This document shows, piece by piece, positions 2,069 to 8,150 of a DNA stretch of 13,732 bases. Numbering within the stretch: position 1 is the stretch's first letter; each line of letters starts with the position of its first letter. This DNA comes from Chloroflexia bacterium (GTDB lineage Bacteria > Chloroflexota > Chloroflexia > Thermomicrobiales > JALYUS01). Both the position numbers and the translations under genes were made by a program. Where the stretch lies: the NCBI GenBank assembly GCA_025924435.1, contig JAICIL010000093.1, positions 1-13,732 on the forward strand, read 5' to 3'. Under the pieces are notes generated by a model, which saw nothing but the letters and a program-made list of their open reading frames with translations, was not told the origin of the DNA and made no database searches.

Positions 2069-3655
2069 GTGCGGCTCACCGCCGAACGGCAGGCAACCGT
2101 GGCGGCCGGGTTCCGTGTCCGGACGGACGCGATGATCGCGGTCGCGTTCGCGCTGCTGACCATCGCGACGCGCTTGCCGTTCCGCTCGCACCGCGTCTTC
2201 AACTGGGACGCGGTGAACTTCGTCCTCGCGTTGCACGACTACGACGTACGCCTCCACCACCCGCAGCCGCCCGGCTATCCGGTTTTCGTGGCGATGGGGC
2301 GCGTCGTGCAACTGGTGATTCCCGACGCGAACAGCGCGCTCGTCGCCGTCGCGATGCTGCTCAGCGCGGGGGCGGTCGCGGCGCTCTACCTGCTCGGGCG
2401 GACGCTGTTCGGGCGGGCGTCGGGTATCGTCGCCGCGCTTTACCTGCTCGTCAGCGTCACCTTCTGGACGAATGGTGCCGTCGCCCTCGCCTATCCATCG
2501 CTCGCGCTCTTCACCACGCTCGTCGCCCTGTTTGCATGGCGTTGCCGCCAGTACGGGCGCGGCGTTCCATTGTGGCTGCCGCTCGCGCTCTCGGCGGCGT
2601 ACGCGGTTGGCGGCGGCTTTCGACCGGATTTGCTCCTCTTCCTGCTGCCGCTCTGGGTATTTGGCCATTGGCGGCTGCCACTGCGCACGATCGTTCTCAG
2701 CGGGATATGTGTGATCGCCATCGTCCTCGCGTGGTTCGTCCCGACGATTGCGCTCTCCGGAGGCTGGTCGGGGTACTGGACGGTCTTTCGGGCATACACC
2801 GGCAACGACGTATTAAAGCGGTACTCCGTCGCCGAGAACGGCCCGCGCGCGCTGATCGTCAATGTGCGCGATACGGCGAAGTACACGGGCTATGCGCTGT
2901 ACGCGCTCGCGCTGCCGATGGCGGGCGCGGCGCTCTGGCTCCTCACCCGATGGCGAATGGTGCGAGACGGGCGCACCACTGCGCGCCCCTACATTGCGCT
3001 GTTCGGGTTGTGGATGACGCCGATGCTGCTCTTTTATGCATGGGTGCATATCGGCGACCCCGGCTACGTCTTCACCTTCGTCCCCGCGCTGCTGCTGATC
3101 GCGGCGCGGTTCACGGTGGAATTGCCGCGCATCGCCGCACGGTTTCACCTCGGTCGGCTCCGGCGGCTTCTCGTGCCCGCCCTGACGATCGTGGTGATCG
3201 CGGCAAATACGGGCATCTTCCTCTTTCGCCCGCTGACCCTGACGGCGCACGGCATCCGCCAGCAGGACCGGACGATTGACGGCAAGGTCGCCTATGTCCG
3301 CGCGCACGGCGACCCCGCGACGACGCTGCTCATCTCGTACGAGAGTTATCGCCACTGGCTCCTCTACCTACCCAATTACCGCGTGCAGTTCGTGGACGTC
3401 ACCTACGGCACAGAGGCAGATCGCACGGTCACGCTCCCGCCCGGCATGACGCGCGCCGTGCTGATGGACGCGACGCTACTTAACGCCCTCGGCGGCACCC
3501 CGGCGACGGACGTGCAGCGGATCGAAGTGGATCGCGTCGGCGTCATCACCCCGCCATCTCCAGGTGCGACGATCCACTTCGCCGCCGTCGCCTCCCCCCT
3601 CGGCAACCAACCACCGAAGCCGCGATCGGTGACGCGCGTAATCCAAGGTTTCTGA
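2069..3655 (+). CDS. Multi-pass membrane glycosyltransferase, GT-C fold, family-39 (ArnT/PMT)-like
   Basis: A 528-aa integral membrane protein with roughly ten or more hydrophobic helices and a polar C-terminal tail of about 130 residues. The first loop has FNWDAVNFVLAL with Asp47, the place where GT-C enzymes carry a catalytic acidic residue. It is followed by HHPQPPGYP (residues 63-71), a signature shared by bacterial family-39-like proteins that use polyprenyl-phosphate sugars. Such enzymes transfer a sugar from a lipid carrier to lipids, glycans or proteins on the outer face of the membrane; the donor and acceptor here cannot be deduced. The start is GTG 2069, 2 bp after the gltX stop, implying translational coupling; an ATG about 20 codons in, just before the first helix, is an alternative start. 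A functional tie to gltX is not obvious. Confidence 0.75.
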   Translation: MRLTAERQATVAAGFRVRTDAMIAVAFALLTIATRLPFRSHRVFNWDAVNFVLALHDYDVRLHHPQPPGYPVFVAMGRVVQLVIPDANSALVAVAMLLSAGAVAALYLLGRTLFGRASGIVAALYLLVSVTFWTNGAVALAYPSLALFTTLVALFAWRCRQYGRGVPLWLPLALSAAYAVGGGFRPDLLLFLLPLWVFGHWRLPLRTIVLSGICVIAIVLAWFVPTIALSGGWSGYWTVFRAYTGNDVLKRYSVAENGPRALIVNVRDTAKYTGYALYALALPMAGAALWLLTRWRMVRDGRTTARPYIALFGLWMTPMLLFYAWVHIGDPGYVFTFVPALLLIAARFTVELPRIAARFHLGRLRRLLVPALTIVVIAANTGIFLFRPLTLTAHGIRQQDRTIDGKVAYVRAHGDPATTLLISYESYRHWLLYLPNYRVQFVDVTYGTEADRTVTLPPGMTRAVLMDATLLNALGGTPATDVQRIEVDRVGVITPPSPGATIHFAAVASPLGNQPPKPRSVTRVIQGF

Positions 3656-4098: not shown

Positions 4099-4557
4099 GT
4101 GAAGTTGAGTGAGGCACTGATTCAGCGGGCGGACATCCAGAAGCGTATTCAGGAACTGCGTGGACGGCTGAATGCCAGCGCAATCGTGCAGGAGGGCGAG
4201 CAGCCACCGGAAGCCCCGGACGCGCTGCTGGCGGAACTGGACCGGCTGTTCGATCAGTTGACTGCTCTGATCGGGCAGATCAACCGGACGAACCTGACCG
4301 CGACATTGGAGAGCGGCAGCACGCTCACCGATGCACTGGCGCAGCGAGACGTCTTGCGGCTGCGGATCGGTGTGCTACAGGGTGCGGCGCAGGCAGCAAG
4401 CGGCTCCGTCAACCGCTACAGCCGGACGGAAATCCGCCAAGTGCCGACCGTGGACATCGCTGCGCTCCGTCAGCGAACGGATCAGCTGGCGCGGGAATGT
4501 CGCGCGTTGGACACGGCGATTCAGGCCGCGAACTGGACAACGGATGTGATCGAGTAA
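4099..4557 (+). CDS. DIP1984-family protein (function unknown; RtcB-linked)
   Basis: A 152-aa soluble protein matching, from memory, the DIP1984 family named after a Corynebacterium diphtheriae protein and sometimes labelled septicolysin. Family-typical segments are the N-terminal MKLSEALIQRADIQKRIQELRGRL, EGEQPPE (about 33-39), INRTN (about 64-68), LTDALAQRDVLRLRI (about 78-92), VNRYSRTEI (about 106-114) and the closing LDTAIQAANWTTDVIE. It is almost entirely alpha-helical with heptad-like patterns and very probably forms a helical bundle or coiled coil; I see no catalytic motif. The start is GTG with AAGGAGGG ending about 5 nt upstream, the best ribosome-binding site in the window. The gene precedes the tRNA-like RNA and rtcB on the same strand, which suggests a cofactor or scaffold role in RNA repair; that role is inference. 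Confidence 0.85.
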   Translation: MKLSEALIQRADIQKRIQELRGRLNASAIVQEGEQPPEAPDALLAELDRLFDQLTALIGQINRTNLTATLESGSTLTDALAQRDVLRLRIGVLQGAAQAASGSVNRYSRTEIRQVPTVDIAALRQRTDQLARECRALDTAIQAANWTTDVIE

Positions 4558-4586
4558 CGGCACGCGCAAGCAGGTAGCCAAACAGG

Positions 4587-4714
4587 GACAGCAGCGTACA
4601 CAAGGCGGCAACTGCCGAAGTTGCAGAATGGTCGAAGAAACCATTACCGAGAGGTATGCGCGGGCACGCATTTCCGGTTCGATTCCGGCTCGCATTGTAC
4701 TGCCCAGCACTGTC
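4587..4714 (+). ncRNA. tRNA-like non-coding RNA between the DIP1984 gene and rtcB
   Basis: Reading 5' to 3', the segment gives consecutive hairpins. H1 is GCAACT/AGTTGC (4608-4613/4619-4624). H2 is AATGGT/ACCATT with a 7-nt, anticodon-arm-sized loop (4627-4632/4640-4645). H3 is ACC/GGT with a GAGA tetraloop (4646-4648/4653-4655). H4 is ATGCG/CGCAT (4656-4660/4667-4671). H5 is CCGG-TTCGATT-CCGG (4674-4688), a textbook tRNA T-arm containing the consensus GGTTCGATTCC. An outer helix can close the set: GACAG (4587-4591) with CTGTC (4710-4714) and GTACA (4596-4600) with TGTAC (4696-4700). It is not a normal tRNA: no regular 7-bp acceptor or D-arm is seen, the H2 loop lacks U33, and no CCA is encoded. 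As I recall, Burroughs and Aravind described a tRNA-like RNA linked to RtcB-type repair operons; this may belong there. Exact ends are uncertain, and it could also act as a leader of rtcB. Confidence 0.55.
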
Positions 4715-4814
4715 ACAAGCGCACCGGGCATTGGGCATCGTTACTACCGCGTGTTGGGCTGTTCGTGTGCGGCGAGGGTGGGCGAGGGGCATTTGCGCGC
4801 TTCTACCTATTTGC

Positions 4815-6290
4815 ATGAGTGATGGCACGATTGTGAGGTGTGGAGTGACCCCGGAACGATACGTCGAGTTGCTGACACAGATTGTCGCGAAGAAGAAGTA
4901 CGCCGATGCGCTGGCGTTCGCGGCGAAGAACTATGCGCCGCTCGCGGAGCAGTTCAACGACGATCAGCGCGCGGCGATCAATGCCTTAATGCAGACAGCG
5001 ACGGCGCTGCCGGTGCTGGATACGCCGACAATTCAAGCGGGTGTCATCTCGCTACGACCGCGCGCGGAGGCGGTTGGCGTGGCGATCTTCGGGGAACCGG
5101 AGGAGAAGACGCTGACCCAGATGCAGCGCTGCCTGACGATGCCGGAGGCAGTCGCGGGCGTCCTCTGTGCGGACGCGCACTACGGCTATTCGCAACCGGT
5201 CGGTGGTGTCGCGGCGTACCGGAACGCGGTATCTGTTTCCGGTGTCGGCTTCGACATCGGCTGCGGACTGAAGGGCGCGCGAACGAACCTGAAGGCGGCG
5301 GACGTGCGCGCCGATCTGCCGCGCATCGTGGACGCCATCGCCCGCACCATCTCGTTCGGTATCGGGCGGAAGAACCCGCGCCCGGTCGAACATCCGCTCT
5401 TTGATGACCCGGTGTGGACGGATTTGCCGTGGTATGGGCCACGCTTGAAGGAGATGGCGCGCGCCCAACTTGGCACCGTCGGCAGCGGCAACCACTTCGT
5501 TGACCTCCTGGTCGAACCGGCGACAGACGACCTCTGGATTTCAACGCACTTCGGCTCGCGCGGCCTCGGACACAAGACGGCGACGGGATTTCTCAATCTC
5601 GCCGGTGGCCTCGGTTTCGAGGATAAGCCGCGTGGCGAGCAGATGGACGCGCCGCCGACGCTGCTCTCGACGGAAACTGCCCTCGGCCAAGCCTACCTCC
5701 AGGCGATGCGGCTGGCGGGCGACTACGCCTATGCCGGGCGGGATTTCGTGATCGCTGAAGTACTCGATCTTCTCGGCGCGCAGGCAACCTTCATCGTGCA
5801 TAATCACCATAACTTCGCGTGGGAGGAGGAGCACTTCGGCGAGCGATTGTTTGTCGTTCGCAAGGGCGCGACACCGCTCGCGCCGGGGCAACGCGGTTTT
5901 GTCGGCGGCTCGATGGCGGACATCTCGGTCGTCATTGAGGGCATCGAGAGCGCGCAGGGAGCCGATGCCCTCTATTCCGCGATGCACGGTGCGGGCAGAA
6001 TCATGAGCCGGACACGAGCGGCGGGCAAGGTGAAGTATGTCCGTGATGCTTCCGGGCGTAAGCAGATGCAGCGGCTCGGCGGCGAGGTGACACCGGAGAT
6101 GATGCGGGAGGCCGTGCGTGCTTACGGCGTCGAGGTCCGCGGTGCCGGGACGGACGAGTCGCCGTTCGTTTATCGCAAGTTGGCGGATGTCCTCGCTGCC
6201 CACGCCGGTACGCTCGTCGTTCGCCATGTCTTGCAACCGATAGGCGTGGTAATGGCAGGTGAAAATGAACGCGACCCCTACAAGGACTGA
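4815..6290 (+). CDS. rtcB: RtcB-family RNA ligase (3'-phosphate/2',3'-cyclic phosphate to 5'-OH)
   Basis: RtcB joins RNA 3'-phosphate or cyclic-phosphate ends to 5'-OH ends using GTP and Mn2+, through a histidine-GMP intermediate. The protein is 491 aa from ATG 4815. Metal and active-site motifs are all present: GFDIGCG (Asp147, Cys150), GSGNHF (His227), STHFGSRG (His245), HNHHNF (His329-His332) and MHGAGRIMSR with His391, the expected guanylylated histidine. The segment ADAHYGYSQPVGG precedes the DIGCG motif, as in the family. The frame is open back to 4656, but that stretch overlaps the tRNA-like RNA and gives a non-family N-terminus. ATG 4815 lacks a clear Shine-Dalgarno; GTG 4845, preceded by GAGGTG, is a plausible alternative. 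The protein carries about 100 residues before the catalytic core that I cannot assign. No RtcA, archease or PrfH gene lies in the window. Confidence 0.95.
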   Translation: MSDGTIVRCGVTPERYVELLTQIVAKKKYADALAFAAKNYAPLAEQFNDDQRAAINALMQTATALPVLDTPTIQAGVISLRPRAEAVGVAIFGEPEEKTLTQMQRCLTMPEAVAGVLCADAHYGYSQPVGGVAAYRNAVSVSGVGFDIGCGLKGARTNLKAADVRADLPRIVDAIARTISFGIGRKNPRPVEHPLFDDPVWTDLPWYGPRLKEMARAQLGTVGSGNHFVDLLVEPATDDLWISTHFGSRGLGHKTATGFLNLAGGLGFEDKPRGEQMDAPPTLLSTETALGQAYLQAMRLAGDYAYAGRDFVIAEVLDLLGAQATFIVHNHHNFAWEEEHFGERLFVVRKGATPLAPGQRGFVGGSMADISVVIEGIESAQGADALYSAMHGAGRIMSRTRAAGKVKYVRDASGRKQMQRLGGEVTPEMMREAVRAYGVEVRGAGTDESPFVYRKLADVLAAHAGTLVVRHVLQPIGVVMAGENERDPYKD

Positions 6291-6331
6291 GCCGCGTGAC
6301 ACCGTCTCACACTCCATCAGGGCGGATACAA

Positions 6332-6346
6332 CGTCGCTTGGCGACG
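6332..6346 (+). repeat. Short GC hairpin downstream of rtcB
   Basis: CGTCGC (6332-6337) and GCGACG (6341-6346) pair around TTG. There is no T-tract, so it is at best a weak transcript-end stem after rtcB. Confidence 0.3.
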
Positions 6347-6363
6347 CGTCGCGTCGCGGATCC

Positions 6364-6410
6364 ACCTCATCCCCGCTCCCCTCAATGGGAGAGGCTGGGA
6401 GAGGTCTTTT
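6364..6410 (+). repeat. REP-like palindrome, possible weak terminator of rtcB
   Basis: ACCTC (6364-6368) pairs with GAGGT (6401-6405), TCCC (6370-6373) with GGGA (6397-6400), and CTCCC (6376-6380) with GGGAG (6387-6391), followed by CTTTT. It resembles a degraded copy, in opposite orientation, of the CCCTCTCC...GGGGTGAGG element at 8244-8291. It lies 74 nt after the rtcB stop and could end that transcript. Confidence 0.45.
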
Positions 6411-6447
6411 CGAGCACGCATAAGCCCCGCAGTTCGTCCGCTCCGCC

Positions 6448-6476
6448 TTGACATGAACGACCCGCCGCCGTACCGT
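6448..6476 (+). promoter_or_regulatory. Sigma-70-type promoter of the sugar-acid operon
   Basis: A perfect TTGACA (6448-6453), a 17-nt spacer (6454-6470) and TACCGT (6471-6476) predict a start near 6483, about 59 nt before the small-subunit ATG. It has the same layout as the secD and micropeptide promoters. Confidence 0.65.
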
Positions 6477-6541
6477 GCCGGATGCACGCCACGGCGTGCC
6501 GACCGTCGCCAATGCACGCAGTGGGTGGGGGAGGATTGCCG

Positions 6542-6877
6542 ATGCCCGATACGACAGGCCGTATCGCCGGGGAGACGCGCGCGCTCATCATGGACCCGAG
6601 CGATAACGTCGCCGTCGCGATCCGCGAATTGACGGCGGGCGAAGCGCTCGTCATCACCGTGCCGGACGGGTCGGAACGCGCCGTCACGACCATCGAACCG
6701 ATTCCCTTCGGCCACAAGTTCTCCACCGCCGACATCGCGGAGGGCGATCAGGTGATTAAATACGGGGAGCGGATCGGGCGCGCGACCCGGCCCATCCCCG
6801 CCGGTTCGCACACGCACATCCACAACATCACGAGCCAGCGCGGCCGGGGCGACCTCAAGGGAAGGACTGAGGACTGA
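6542..6877 (+). CDS. UxaA-type sugar-acid dehydratase, small subunit (SAF domain)
   Basis: A 111-aa protein equal to the N-terminal SAF domain of altronate/galactarate dehydratases. In the split forms it is a separate subunit that pairs with the large catalytic chain to remove water from a sugar acid and give a 2-keto-3-deoxy acid. The pattern ALIMDPSDNVAVAIRELTAGEAL (residues 12-34), IPFGHKFSTADIAEGDQVIKYGERIGRAT (about 60-88) and the His-rich SHTHIHNITSQRG (about 92-104) is typical of this family. ATG 6542 is chosen because GGGGGAGG lies 7 nt upstream; an earlier ATG at 6482 gives unrelated sequence. The stop codon and the last residues (RTED) are encoded within the GGACTGA heptamer array, so the C-terminus is probably repeat-derived. 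The large subunit follows after 61 nt. The substrate is not determined; fuconate, altronate, arabinonate or galactarate-like acids are possible. Confidence 0.85.
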   Translation: MPDTTGRIAGETRALIMDPSDNVAVAIRELTAGEALVITVPDGSERAVTTIEPIPFGHKFSTADIAEGDQVIKYGERIGRATRPIPAGSHTHIHNITSQRGRGDLKGRTED

Positions 6878-6885
6878 GGACTGAG
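6864..6885 (+). repeat. Heptamer array A: three GGACTGA units at the end of the small-subunit gene
   Basis: Three exact tandem copies lie at 6864-6870, 6871-6877 and 6878-6884, plus a trailing G. The TGA at 6875-6877, the stop codon of the small-subunit gene, lies in the second copy. It is complementary to array B at 6965-6992. Confidence 0.9.
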
Positions 6886-6938
6886 CCGTACGGCTTTGCC
6901 TCAGTCATTCTCTCGACGCATCAGCAAGGAGTCGTACC

Positions 6939-8150
6939 ATGGCAACCGTAACACACCAAACCCCTCAGTCCTCAGTCCTCAGTCCTCAGTCCTCGTTTAT
7001 GGGCTACCGGCGCGCGTATAGTGGCCGCGCCGGGGTGCGGAATCTCGTGCTCATCATCCCCTCGGTCGTCTGCTCGAACACCGTCGTGCAGCGGATCGCG
7101 CAGCAGGTGCCGGAGTGCGTCTTCGTCACGCATCAGCACGGCTGCTCGCAGGTCGGTGACGATGTCGAGCAGACGCGCGCGACGCTGATCGGCTACGCGA
7201 CGAATCCGAATGTCGCGGGGGTGCTCGTCGTCTCGCTCGGCTGCGAGACGATCGAGGGCGATCGCGTCGCCCAGATGATCGCGGACACCGGCCAGGATGT
7301 GGAATTCCTCGGCATCCAGGAGAGCGGCGGCATCAAAAAGACGGTCGAACTCGGCATCGAGAAGTGTCACGCCCTGCTGGAACGCGCGAGCCGCCACAAG
7401 CGCGAAGAGGTGCCGCTCTCGGAACTGATTCTCGCCGTGCAGTGCGGCGGTTCGGACGCCTTCAGCGGCATCACCGCGAACCCCGCGCTCGGCATCGCCT
7501 CGGACATGCTCGTCGCGACGGGTGGCACGGTGATGCTCGCGGAGGTGCCGGAGTGCCTCGGCGCGGAGCATCTGCTCGCCGCGCGCGCCCGGACGCCGGA
7601 AGTCGGCGAGCAGTTGGTCGCCGCCGTGCGCCGCTACGAGGAGGACGCGCTGCGGATGGGCGTGGACCTCAACAAGGGCAACCCCGCGCCGGGCAATATC
7701 AAGGGCGGCCTGACGACGATCGAGGAGAAGTCCATCGGCGCGATGAAGAAAGGCGGCAGCACGCCGCTCAACGAAGTGCTCGCCTACGCCCAACCGCCCA
7801 CCCGGAAGGGCCTCGTCATCATGGACACGCCGGGGAACGACATCGAGAGCGTCACCGGCAACCTCGCCGGGATGGCGCAGATGGTCGTTTTCACGACCGG
7901 GCGCGGAAGTGTCACCGGCGCGGCAATTGCGCCCGTCATCAAAGTGGCGACGAACACGCCGATGTACGAGAAGATGACCGACAACATGGACATCAACGCG
8001 GGCACCGTCGTGGACGGCACCGAGACGTTGCAGGAGGTCGGGCGCCGCATCTTCGAGAAGATTATCGCCGTCGCGAACGGCGAGCAGACCCGCTCCGAAG
8101 AATGGGGCTGCAACGAGTTCGGCATCAACCGCATCGGTCCATCGCTCTAA
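6939..8150 (+). CDS. UxaA-type sugar-acid dehydratase, large catalytic subunit
   Basis: A 403-aa chain corresponding to the C-terminal catalytic part of altronate dehydratase/galactarate dehydratase-type lyases (metal- or Fe-dependent). Family motifs are GYRRAYSGRAGVRN (22-35), VCSNTVV with Cys45, THQHGCSQVG with Cys69, SLGCETI with Cys102, QCGGSDAFSGITANPALG with Cys169, VPECLGAEH, and PAPGNIKGGLTTIEEKSIGAMKKGG. Together with the preceding SAF subunit it makes a complete split dehydratase. The start is ATG 6939, with AAGGAG 7 nt upstream. Normal family members begin near MGYRRA, here residue 21 (ATG 6999); the extra 20 residues include PQSSVLSPQSS, which is translated heptamer repeat. ATG 6999 lacks a Shine-Dalgarno and is the fallback start. 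A split UxaA acts on L-fuconate in the Campylobacter jejuni fucose locus as I recall, which fits the neighbouring aldose dehydrogenase. Confidence 0.92.
   Translation: MATVTHQTPQSSVLSPQSSFMGYRRAYSGRAGVRNLVLIIPSVVCSNTVVQRIAQQVPECVFVTHQHGCSQVGDDVEQTRATLIGYATNPNVAGVLVVSLGCETIEGDRVAQMIADTGQDVEFLGIQESGGIKKTVELGIEKCHALLERASRHKREEVPLSELILAVQCGGSDAFSGITANPALGIASDMLVATGGTVMLAEVPECLGAEHLLAARARTPEVGEQLVAAVRRYEEDALRMGVDLNKGNPAPGNIKGGLTTIEEKSIGAMKKGGSTPLNEVLAYAQPPTRKGLVIMDTPGNDIESVTGNLAGMAQMVVFTTGRGSVTGAAIAPVIKVATNTPMYEKMTDNMDINAGTVVDGTETLQEVGRRIFEKIIAVANGEQTRSEEWGCNEFGINRIGPSL
6965..6992 (-). repeat. Heptamer array B: four units, inverted, inside the large-subunit coding region
   Basis: Four exact TCAGTCC copies (GGACTGA on the minus strand) lie at 6965-6971, 6972-6978, 6979-6985 and 6986-6992. 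They encode residues 9-19 of the large subunit. Because 7 is not a multiple of 3, gain or loss of one copy shifts the frame. Confidence 0.9.

Follow-up and report, generated by a model that had tools for sequence, protein, structure and literature searches.

The window considered here is the whole 13,732-nucleotide stretch of contig JAICIL010000093.1 from a Chloroflexia bacterium (assembly GCA_025924435.1); the names borne by its closest protein relatives suggest a Thermomicrobiales-like member of Chloroflexota. Within it, a gene of the DIP1984 family and a gene for a divergent RtcB ligase (4845–6290) are tightly packed on the same strand with 287 bases between them, and the spacer holds a structured RNA that we propose as a new family (Table 1). 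The original prediction correctly described this same-strand arrangement with little spare sequence, and interpreted the DIP1984 gene, a tRNA-like RNA, and rtcB as one RNA-repair cassette. A survey of other genomes leads to a different grouping: judged by its distribution, the spacer RNA belongs with DIP1984 and not with rtcB, and DIP1984 and the RNA directly downstream of it most likely constitute one two-gene cassette.

The DIP1984 protein passes the membership cut-off of NCBIfam NF038048 (186.3 bits vs a cut-off of 70) and that of Pfam PF20935/DUF6847 (183.9 bits vs 27), and a strong Shine-Dalgarno sequence, AAAGGAGGG, was read by eye 5′ of its GTG start codon, in agreement with the family assignment and the very strong ribosome-binding site originally described. 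The AlphaFold model consists of four long helices with a mean predicted local distance difference test (pLDDT) score of 92.3, and its least confident part is a loop, RYSR, that is conserved in an alignment of the family (alignment A8). The solved relative PDB 3kdq is a DIP1984-family protein of C. diphtheriae whose structure has been available since 2009. On some Acinetobacter plasmids, the gene is annotated as “septicolysin,” and a 2026 paper (PMC13141974) shows “sep (septicolysin)” as a gene carried by plasmids built from dif modules. The protein had been predicted to be a helical-bundle RNA-binding or scaffold partner; the helical architecture and the association with an RNA gene both held up, and the protein may bind this RNA.

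The first indication of a conserved RNA is the spacer DNA itself. Searched against 158 genomes of one Chloroflexota class at E ≤ 1, it matched 138, nearly all over short segments, and the two best matches were long: one in G094 has 73% identity along 116 bases (E 4e-11), and one in G095 has 72% (E 1e-10). Next came G064, with 74% along about 80 bases (E 7.7e-6). A further match in G072 (68% over 115 bases, E 0.006) was weaker than a few of the short ones. The matches in G094, G064, and G072 all lie about 90–120 bases 3′ of a DIP1984 gene, on the same strand. Most DIP1984 downstream regions have a series of motifs in common, namely GGUA near the 5′ end, GCGANCAC, TGCCCAGCA, ACUACC, and, towards the 3′ end, the box GAGGGYGGGNNNGGGG. 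Of 40 sequences with DIP1984, among which three are repeat fetches of loci already included, 36 contain this box; 179 other loci contain it four times, at three plasmid DIP1984 loci and in one remnant.

Two covariance models were built with the window left out of training: R1 from 11 sequences, and R2 from 29, including some Bacillota loci (none in R1). Both recognized the RNA of the window (R1: 81.6 bits, E 6.6e-22; R2: 103.7 bits, E 3.4e-31), which is about 200–240 nt long. Of 37 Chloroflexota DIP1984 loci, R1 placed the RNA immediately 3′ of the gene and in the same orientation at 32, nine of them being training sequences. Of the five misses, one locus enters unresolved bases (L091), one seems to stop inside the RNA (L125), one holds a gene fragment (L147), and two are apparently without the RNA (L145 and L146). 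Among the 158 genomes, the RNA was present in all 13 with DIP1984 and in 2 of the 145 without it, each of the 15 positive genomes having a single match, and in 12 of the 13 it immediately followed the DIP1984 gene. The positive genomes lacking DIP1984 are G044, with a 38-base partial match that is probably due to chance, and G095, in which only an apparent 3′ half was seen by eye (L195, about 1490–1630), likely a remnant after loss of DIP1984. In the thirteenth genome, G037, a complete orphan copy of the RNA (L232, 1492–1701; R2 46.4 bits) has no adjoining DIP1984, the gene being located elsewhere in the genome.

The association extends beyond Chloroflexota. In Bacillota, DIP1984 matches were found in 22 of 338 genomes (20 above the family cut-off) at 25 places, 19 of which carry the RNA by R1 (E < 1e-6). 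With R2, the second copy in each of two tandem pairs is also detected (L256 and L257; E about 1e-6 to 1e-5), raising the count to 21; the remaining four places comprise three DIP1984 matches below the cut-off and one partial match. In the two genomes concerned, the DIP1984 genes lie about 2 kb apart (L237/L257 and L238/L256), and the second RNAs look degenerate and are without the G-rich box. Outside the training sequences, R1 also found the RNA at plasmid and phage loci of Picosynechococcus, Paracoccus, and an Enterococcus phage record. Picosynechococcus sp. PCC 7117 and PCC 7003 are non-pathogenic carriers of the cassette. A copy in Psychrobacter, in neither training set, was found with E 0.015 by R1 and E 2.3e-6 by R2. 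The copies in Streptomyces and M. branderi score high but were first recognized by motif and belong to the training set. Overall, the gene and its RNA occur together in at least five phyla (Chloroflexota, Bacillota, Actinomycetota, Cyanobacteriota, and Pseudomonadota). We regard it as nearly certain that the RNA family exists and is linked to DIP1984. The original prediction had staked half of its case on conservation of the intervening RNA and proposed a covariance model as a check; this conservation proved to be strong.

The proposed fold consists of three nested helices, P1, P2, and P3, with further elements enclosed by P3 (Table 1). It was evaluated on A4, a MAFFT alignment of 33 sequences fitted to no structure, and on A7, a model-fitted alignment of 52 sequences. 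On A4, the helices pair in 80.2% of cells, compared with 63.1% in shuffled alignments and 34–40% when slid, and the covariation score is 0.599, compared with 0.256 in shuffles (0 of 500 shuffles) and 0.14–0.16 when slid; P2 and P3 each pair in 93.9% of cells. A duplex test on 32 sequences, in which each strand was set against non-cognate strands, favored the own strands for each of P1, P2, and P3 (0 of 5000 permutations in each case). On A7, which as a fitted alignment leans towards its structure, 98.1% of P3 cells are paired, and three of its positions show five types of base pair. Conservation is not confined to the helices, as 21 columns of A4 are invariant among the 33 sequences, bases outside helices included; GGUA differs in a few RNA copies outside A4.

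Table 1. Features of the DIP1984 locus in window coordinates. Pairing percentages from fitted alignments lean towards their structure.
Feature	Position	Strand	Basis or detail
DIP1984 family (DUF6847) gene, proposed protein half of the cassette	4099..4557	+	GTG start, 152 aa; NF038048 and PF20935; solved relative PDB 3kdq
DIP1984-linked structured RNA, proposed new family	4564..4804	+	R1 and R2 covariance models, window in neither training set
P1 5′ strand GCGCAA, closing stem	4564..4569	+	Duplex test; weaker on unfitted alignment
GGUA, 5′ side of P1–P2 internal loop	4573..4576	+	Invariant in 33/33 A4 rows
P2 5′ strand region	4577..4585	+	Covariation
P3 5′ strand ACAC	4598..4601	+	93.9% of cells paired on A4, 98.1% on A7
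H-type pseudoknot, inside P3	4604..4624	+	GGC 4604–4606/GCC 4614–4616; GCAACT 4608–4613/AGTTGC 4619–4624
P6 hairpin ATGCG-CGGGCA-CGCAT	4656..4671	+	94.2% of lettered cells paired (fitted alignment)
T-loop hairpin (T-arm of the original prediction), optional element	4674..4688	+	CCGG-TTCGATT-CCGG; 19/52 copies
P7 3′ strand GCCC within conserved TGCCCAGCA segment	4702..4705	+	Can pair with P6 loop GGGC; covariation
P3 3′ strand GTGT	4751..4754	+	Paired with ACAC, same basis
P2 3′ strand region	4759..4773	+	Covariation
GAGGGYGGGNNNGGGG box, most conserved part of the RNA	4774..4789	+	Invariant G columns in A4
P1 3′ strand TTGCGC	4793..4798	+	Duplex test; weaker on unfitted alignment

Two further elements inside P3 are supported. 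The H-type pseudoknot fits 42 of the 52 copies, 24 of them at p ≤ 0.05 against their own shuffles and a few in another register, and the copy in the window reaches p 0.033. A pairing between the loop of P6 and the downstream P7 strand is indicated by GGGC upstream in 22 of the 24 copies with GCCC. Where P7 varies, the exact complement occurs upstream in 12 of 17 copies, compared with 148 of 795 mismatched combinations and a shuffle mean of 4.3 (maximum 9) of 17; this test set aside 11 of the 52 copies gapped at the site, and a few of the 12 complements lie outside a clear hairpin loop.

The spacer had been described as a structured RNA with a canonical T-arm, and a role as decoy, guide, or sensor for cleaved tRNA had been proposed for it. 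The T-arm pattern GGTTCGANTCC occurs once in the window, compared with an expectation of 0.07, but 12 of 200 shuffles contain at least one instance, and when one mismatch is allowed, this looser form is not enriched over chance; the pattern by itself is thus only mildly unusual. Across the family, 19 of 52 RNA copies pass a strict test for the T-loop hairpin, compared with 0.4% of shuffles, and on these counts it is a real but optional part of a larger RNA. The spacer was also considered as a tRNA and rejected: with the spacer alone, tRNA-Sec scored 13.5 bits (E 6.6), compared with its gathering score of 47, ARAGORN called no tRNA in the window, and a search of Rfam over the window gave no tRNA match at E ≤ 1. 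Hence the structured RNA and the hairpin stand, whereas the tRNA nature does not, and the decoy or guide role is not supported for an RNA in which the strict T-loop is present in a minority of copies.

The third member of the original cassette is a genuine but divergent RtcB (PF01139, 205.2 bits vs 27). The expected Asp, Cys, and His positions, which we take to be the metal ligands and the guanylylated His, coincide with those of two solved relatives (2epg and 4dwr) and do not vary among 18 aligned sequences, in line with the ligase assignment first made. Comparison of P0001 and relatives suggests that translation probably starts at GTG 4845, giving 481 aa. An N-terminal extension of about 77 residues (4845–5075) is common to relatives of 60–82%, and for P0002–P0013 the identity of RtcB is about 80%; most RtcB relatives in the genomes do not match it, with partial matches in G054, G055, and G107. 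Four other loci (L184, L186, L191, and L192) have RtcB frames of 801–967 residues in which the family match falls in two pieces, as for intein-containing RtcB.

The rtcB survey covered the best 80 of 570 confirmed relatives in genome contigs, none of which is more than 62% identical to the RtcB of the window. The conserved neighborhood of DIP1984 and rtcB that the original prediction expected was not seen among the loci searched: DIP1984 was found at none of the 80 rtcB loci (flanks up to 4 kb) and rtcB at none of 36 DIP1984 loci (within 1.5 kb). In the 158-genome class, DIP1984 occurs in 13 genomes, an rtcB match in 89, and both in 12, and among the rtcB places listed for the class none is on a DIP1984 contig. 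In a second class of 47 genomes, 18 have both genes; the two are on one contig in three, more than 800 kb apart. Likewise, R1 found no RNA at E < 0.01 in 82 rtcB loci (best 8.9 bits, E 0.66), and R2 found nothing in 62 (best E 0.31). By this distribution, the RtcB of the window looks like an unrelated neighbor of the DIP1984-RNA pair, and a single RNA-repair cassette including RtcB is not borne out.

Two arrangements with tRNA parts in permuted order were seen among the loci; permuted tRNA genes would be unusual in bacteria. In L274 (G088:C137:3800–4300; about 200–273, + strand), a 3′ half with the loop CTTCTAA, T-arm, and acceptor CATCAGC is followed by the linker GTAA and then by acceptor GCTGATG, D-arm, and anticodon stem. 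The acceptor forms 7 of 7 pairs, and the arrangement fits tRNA-Arg(UCU) by eye; ARAGORN on the joined halves returned mixed anticodons, no top one being Arg. It directly precedes a cluster of tRNA matches, spread over 27 places from 4130 to 7058 of its contig. A weaker, tRNA-like case, L094 (G096:C4; about 2925–3010, − strand), has the order T-arm, CAGTGG, TTTG, CCGCTG, and D-arm about 200–270 bases upstream of rtcB, and was called as such by neither ARAGORN nor Rfam. A third pattern match, L275, consists of two ordinary tandem tRNA-Met genes.

The surroundings of the pair are variable. Among 44 flanking open reading frames (ORFs) at 22 DIP1984-RNA loci, for which the longest frame in the 1.5 kb to either side was taken, so that perhaps not all are real genes, there was one match across loci, between two closely related, 91% identical proteins. 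With no more than this one match, the conserved unit seems to be DIP1984 and the RNA alone. The DIP1984 gene is patchily distributed (30 of 400 Chloroflexota genomes; 22 of 338 in Bacillota) and is found on 370 of 72,556 plasmid records, 341 of which are from Acinetobacter. In the window, the genes around DIP1984 and RtcB encode glutamyl-tRNA synthetase, a membrane protein, altronate dehydratase parts, an aldo-keto reductase, an FAA hydrolase, an ABC ATPase, and NIPSNAP, and suggest no link. At the contig end (13540–13732), the sequence is very G-rich and of low complexity, and a dxr-like frame runs into proline stretches there, which suggests a sequencing or assembly error.

Based on these observations, we propose that DIP1984 and its RNA form a mobile ribonucleoprotein cassette, with a probability of roughly 0.6. 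DIP1984 and the RNA would be made from one transcript, from which the RNA may be excised or may survive as a stable piece, and the helical DIP1984 protein would bind it to form a ribonucleoprotein acting in trans. A candidate protein-RNA interface may consist of GGUA facing the G-rich GAGGGYGGGNNNGGGG strand together with the RYSR loop of DIP1984. The cassette would spread by itself on plasmids, dif modules, and chromosomes. For the role of the particle, two leading but somewhat unlikely options may be offered with equal reserve: it might regulate or sequester an RNA or a translation factor of the cell, or it might provide mobile DNA with a conditional fitness or maintenance function.

Several observations weigh against this proposal. 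P1 pairs in just 52.7% of A4 cells, and no pseudoknot could be fitted in 10 of the 52 copies. Because the sequences in which the helices were picked by eye also served to test them, and because shuffle tests are inflated by relatedness, the slid control and the duplex test matter. The folding energy of the window RNA is no better than that of shuffles (z +1.04), so the case for the RNA rests on homology and covariation. Neither R1 nor R2 detects the RNA at an Acinetobacter baumannii plasmid locus (L218), at which similar segments are visible by eye, and two DIP1984-bearing, Ktedonobacter-sized genomes are without a convincing copy (G457, 17.8 bits, E 0.047; G462, none). The fold of DIP1984 clearly matches PDB 3kdq alone, itself described as functionally unknown. 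Finally, the orphan copy in G037 is a single case, and the sequence behind the DIP1984 gene of that genome consists of unresolved bases (N).

The RNA could instead be a cis-acting 3′ element of the DIP1984 mRNA, bound by DIP1984 or another factor for stability, termination, or translation and having no role in trans. Its position 3′ of the gene on the same strand, mostly near the stop codon, would fit such an element, but the complete orphan copy in G037 lacks an adjoining DIP1984 and points towards action in trans, and about 200 nt with several pseudoknots would be large for a 3′ control element; we regard this explanation as unlikely. In another scenario, the RNA is the active or mobile part, ribozyme-like or self-spreading, and DIP1984 merely helps it to fold. 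Such an RNA might be expected from the conservation of bases outside helices and from the presence of DIP1984 on many plasmids, yet the single match in each of the 15 positive genomes and the lack of a match to any Rfam family, ribozymes included, make it very unlikely.

A toxin-antitoxin or anti-phage function of the pair, in which the RNA would serve as antitoxin or as trigger, might be suggested by the plasmids, the phage record, and the patchy distribution in genomes but is similarly improbable: no PADLOC defence family was found for four DIP1984 proteins at E ≤ 0.1, a Pfam scan of the window proteins gave no nuclease family, the neighbors are diverse, and the RNA does not form tandem repeats of the type III kind, which are part of the definition of type III toxin-antitoxin systems. 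The RNA-repair cassette of the original prediction draws on adjacency in this single window, on the T-loop hairpin, and on the reported RtcB systems that include a tRNA-like RNA. As a general system it fails, since DIP1984 and rtcB are not neighbors elsewhere among the loci searched, the RNA is absent from rtcB loci, and RNA and DIP1984 occur together without rtcB nearby; its probability is close to negligible.

Comparison with known systems places the proposed ribonucleoprotein cassette apart. RtcB systems with Ro/Y RNA, or with SPFH/band-7 plus a tRNA-like RNA, were reportedly described by Burroughs and Aravind in 2016; they are alike in having a protein gene beside a structured RNA and a T-loop, whereas here RtcB lies outside the conserved unit and the RNA is not tRNA-like overall. 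Pairs of the OLE RNA/OapA type likewise join a large structured RNA to a small protein of its own, encoded by the adjacent gene. Unlike DIP1984, which is modelled as four long helices, OapA is a membrane protein, and the DIP1984-linked RNA has no Rfam match. With tRNA and tRNA-Sec (RF00005 and RF01852), the RNA has one T-loop hairpin in common, but an acceptor stem is lacking by eye and the score is far below gathering. Apart from a genuine tRNA at another place in L136, a search of Rfam 15 with the window, the spacer, and 20 DIP1984 loci gave no family at or near its gathering score, the other matches at the 20 loci being weak and falling far short of it. For the DIP1984 family (NF038048, DUF6847, 3kdq, “septicolysin”), the RNA partner is the new part, and in the library searched, DIP1984, DUF6847, and septicolysin returned no paper whose title concerns an RNA. 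Among the families and systems tested, there is no match for the RNA or for the pair. The wider claim, that the pair is an unrecognized, self-contained, and horizontally spreading ribonucleoprotein in at least five phyla, acting in trans by a mechanism unlike that of any described RNA-protein system, has in our estimate slightly less than an even chance.

For the widespread DIP1984 family, which has had a structure since 2009, the RNA provides a first likely and testable partner. It would also explain why no genes are listed for the stretch behind DIP1984 in five annotated plasmid records, although their gene tables are incomplete and neither model finds the RNA in the Acinetobacter record. 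Moreover, it adds a large and widespread structured RNA that Rfam 15 lacks.

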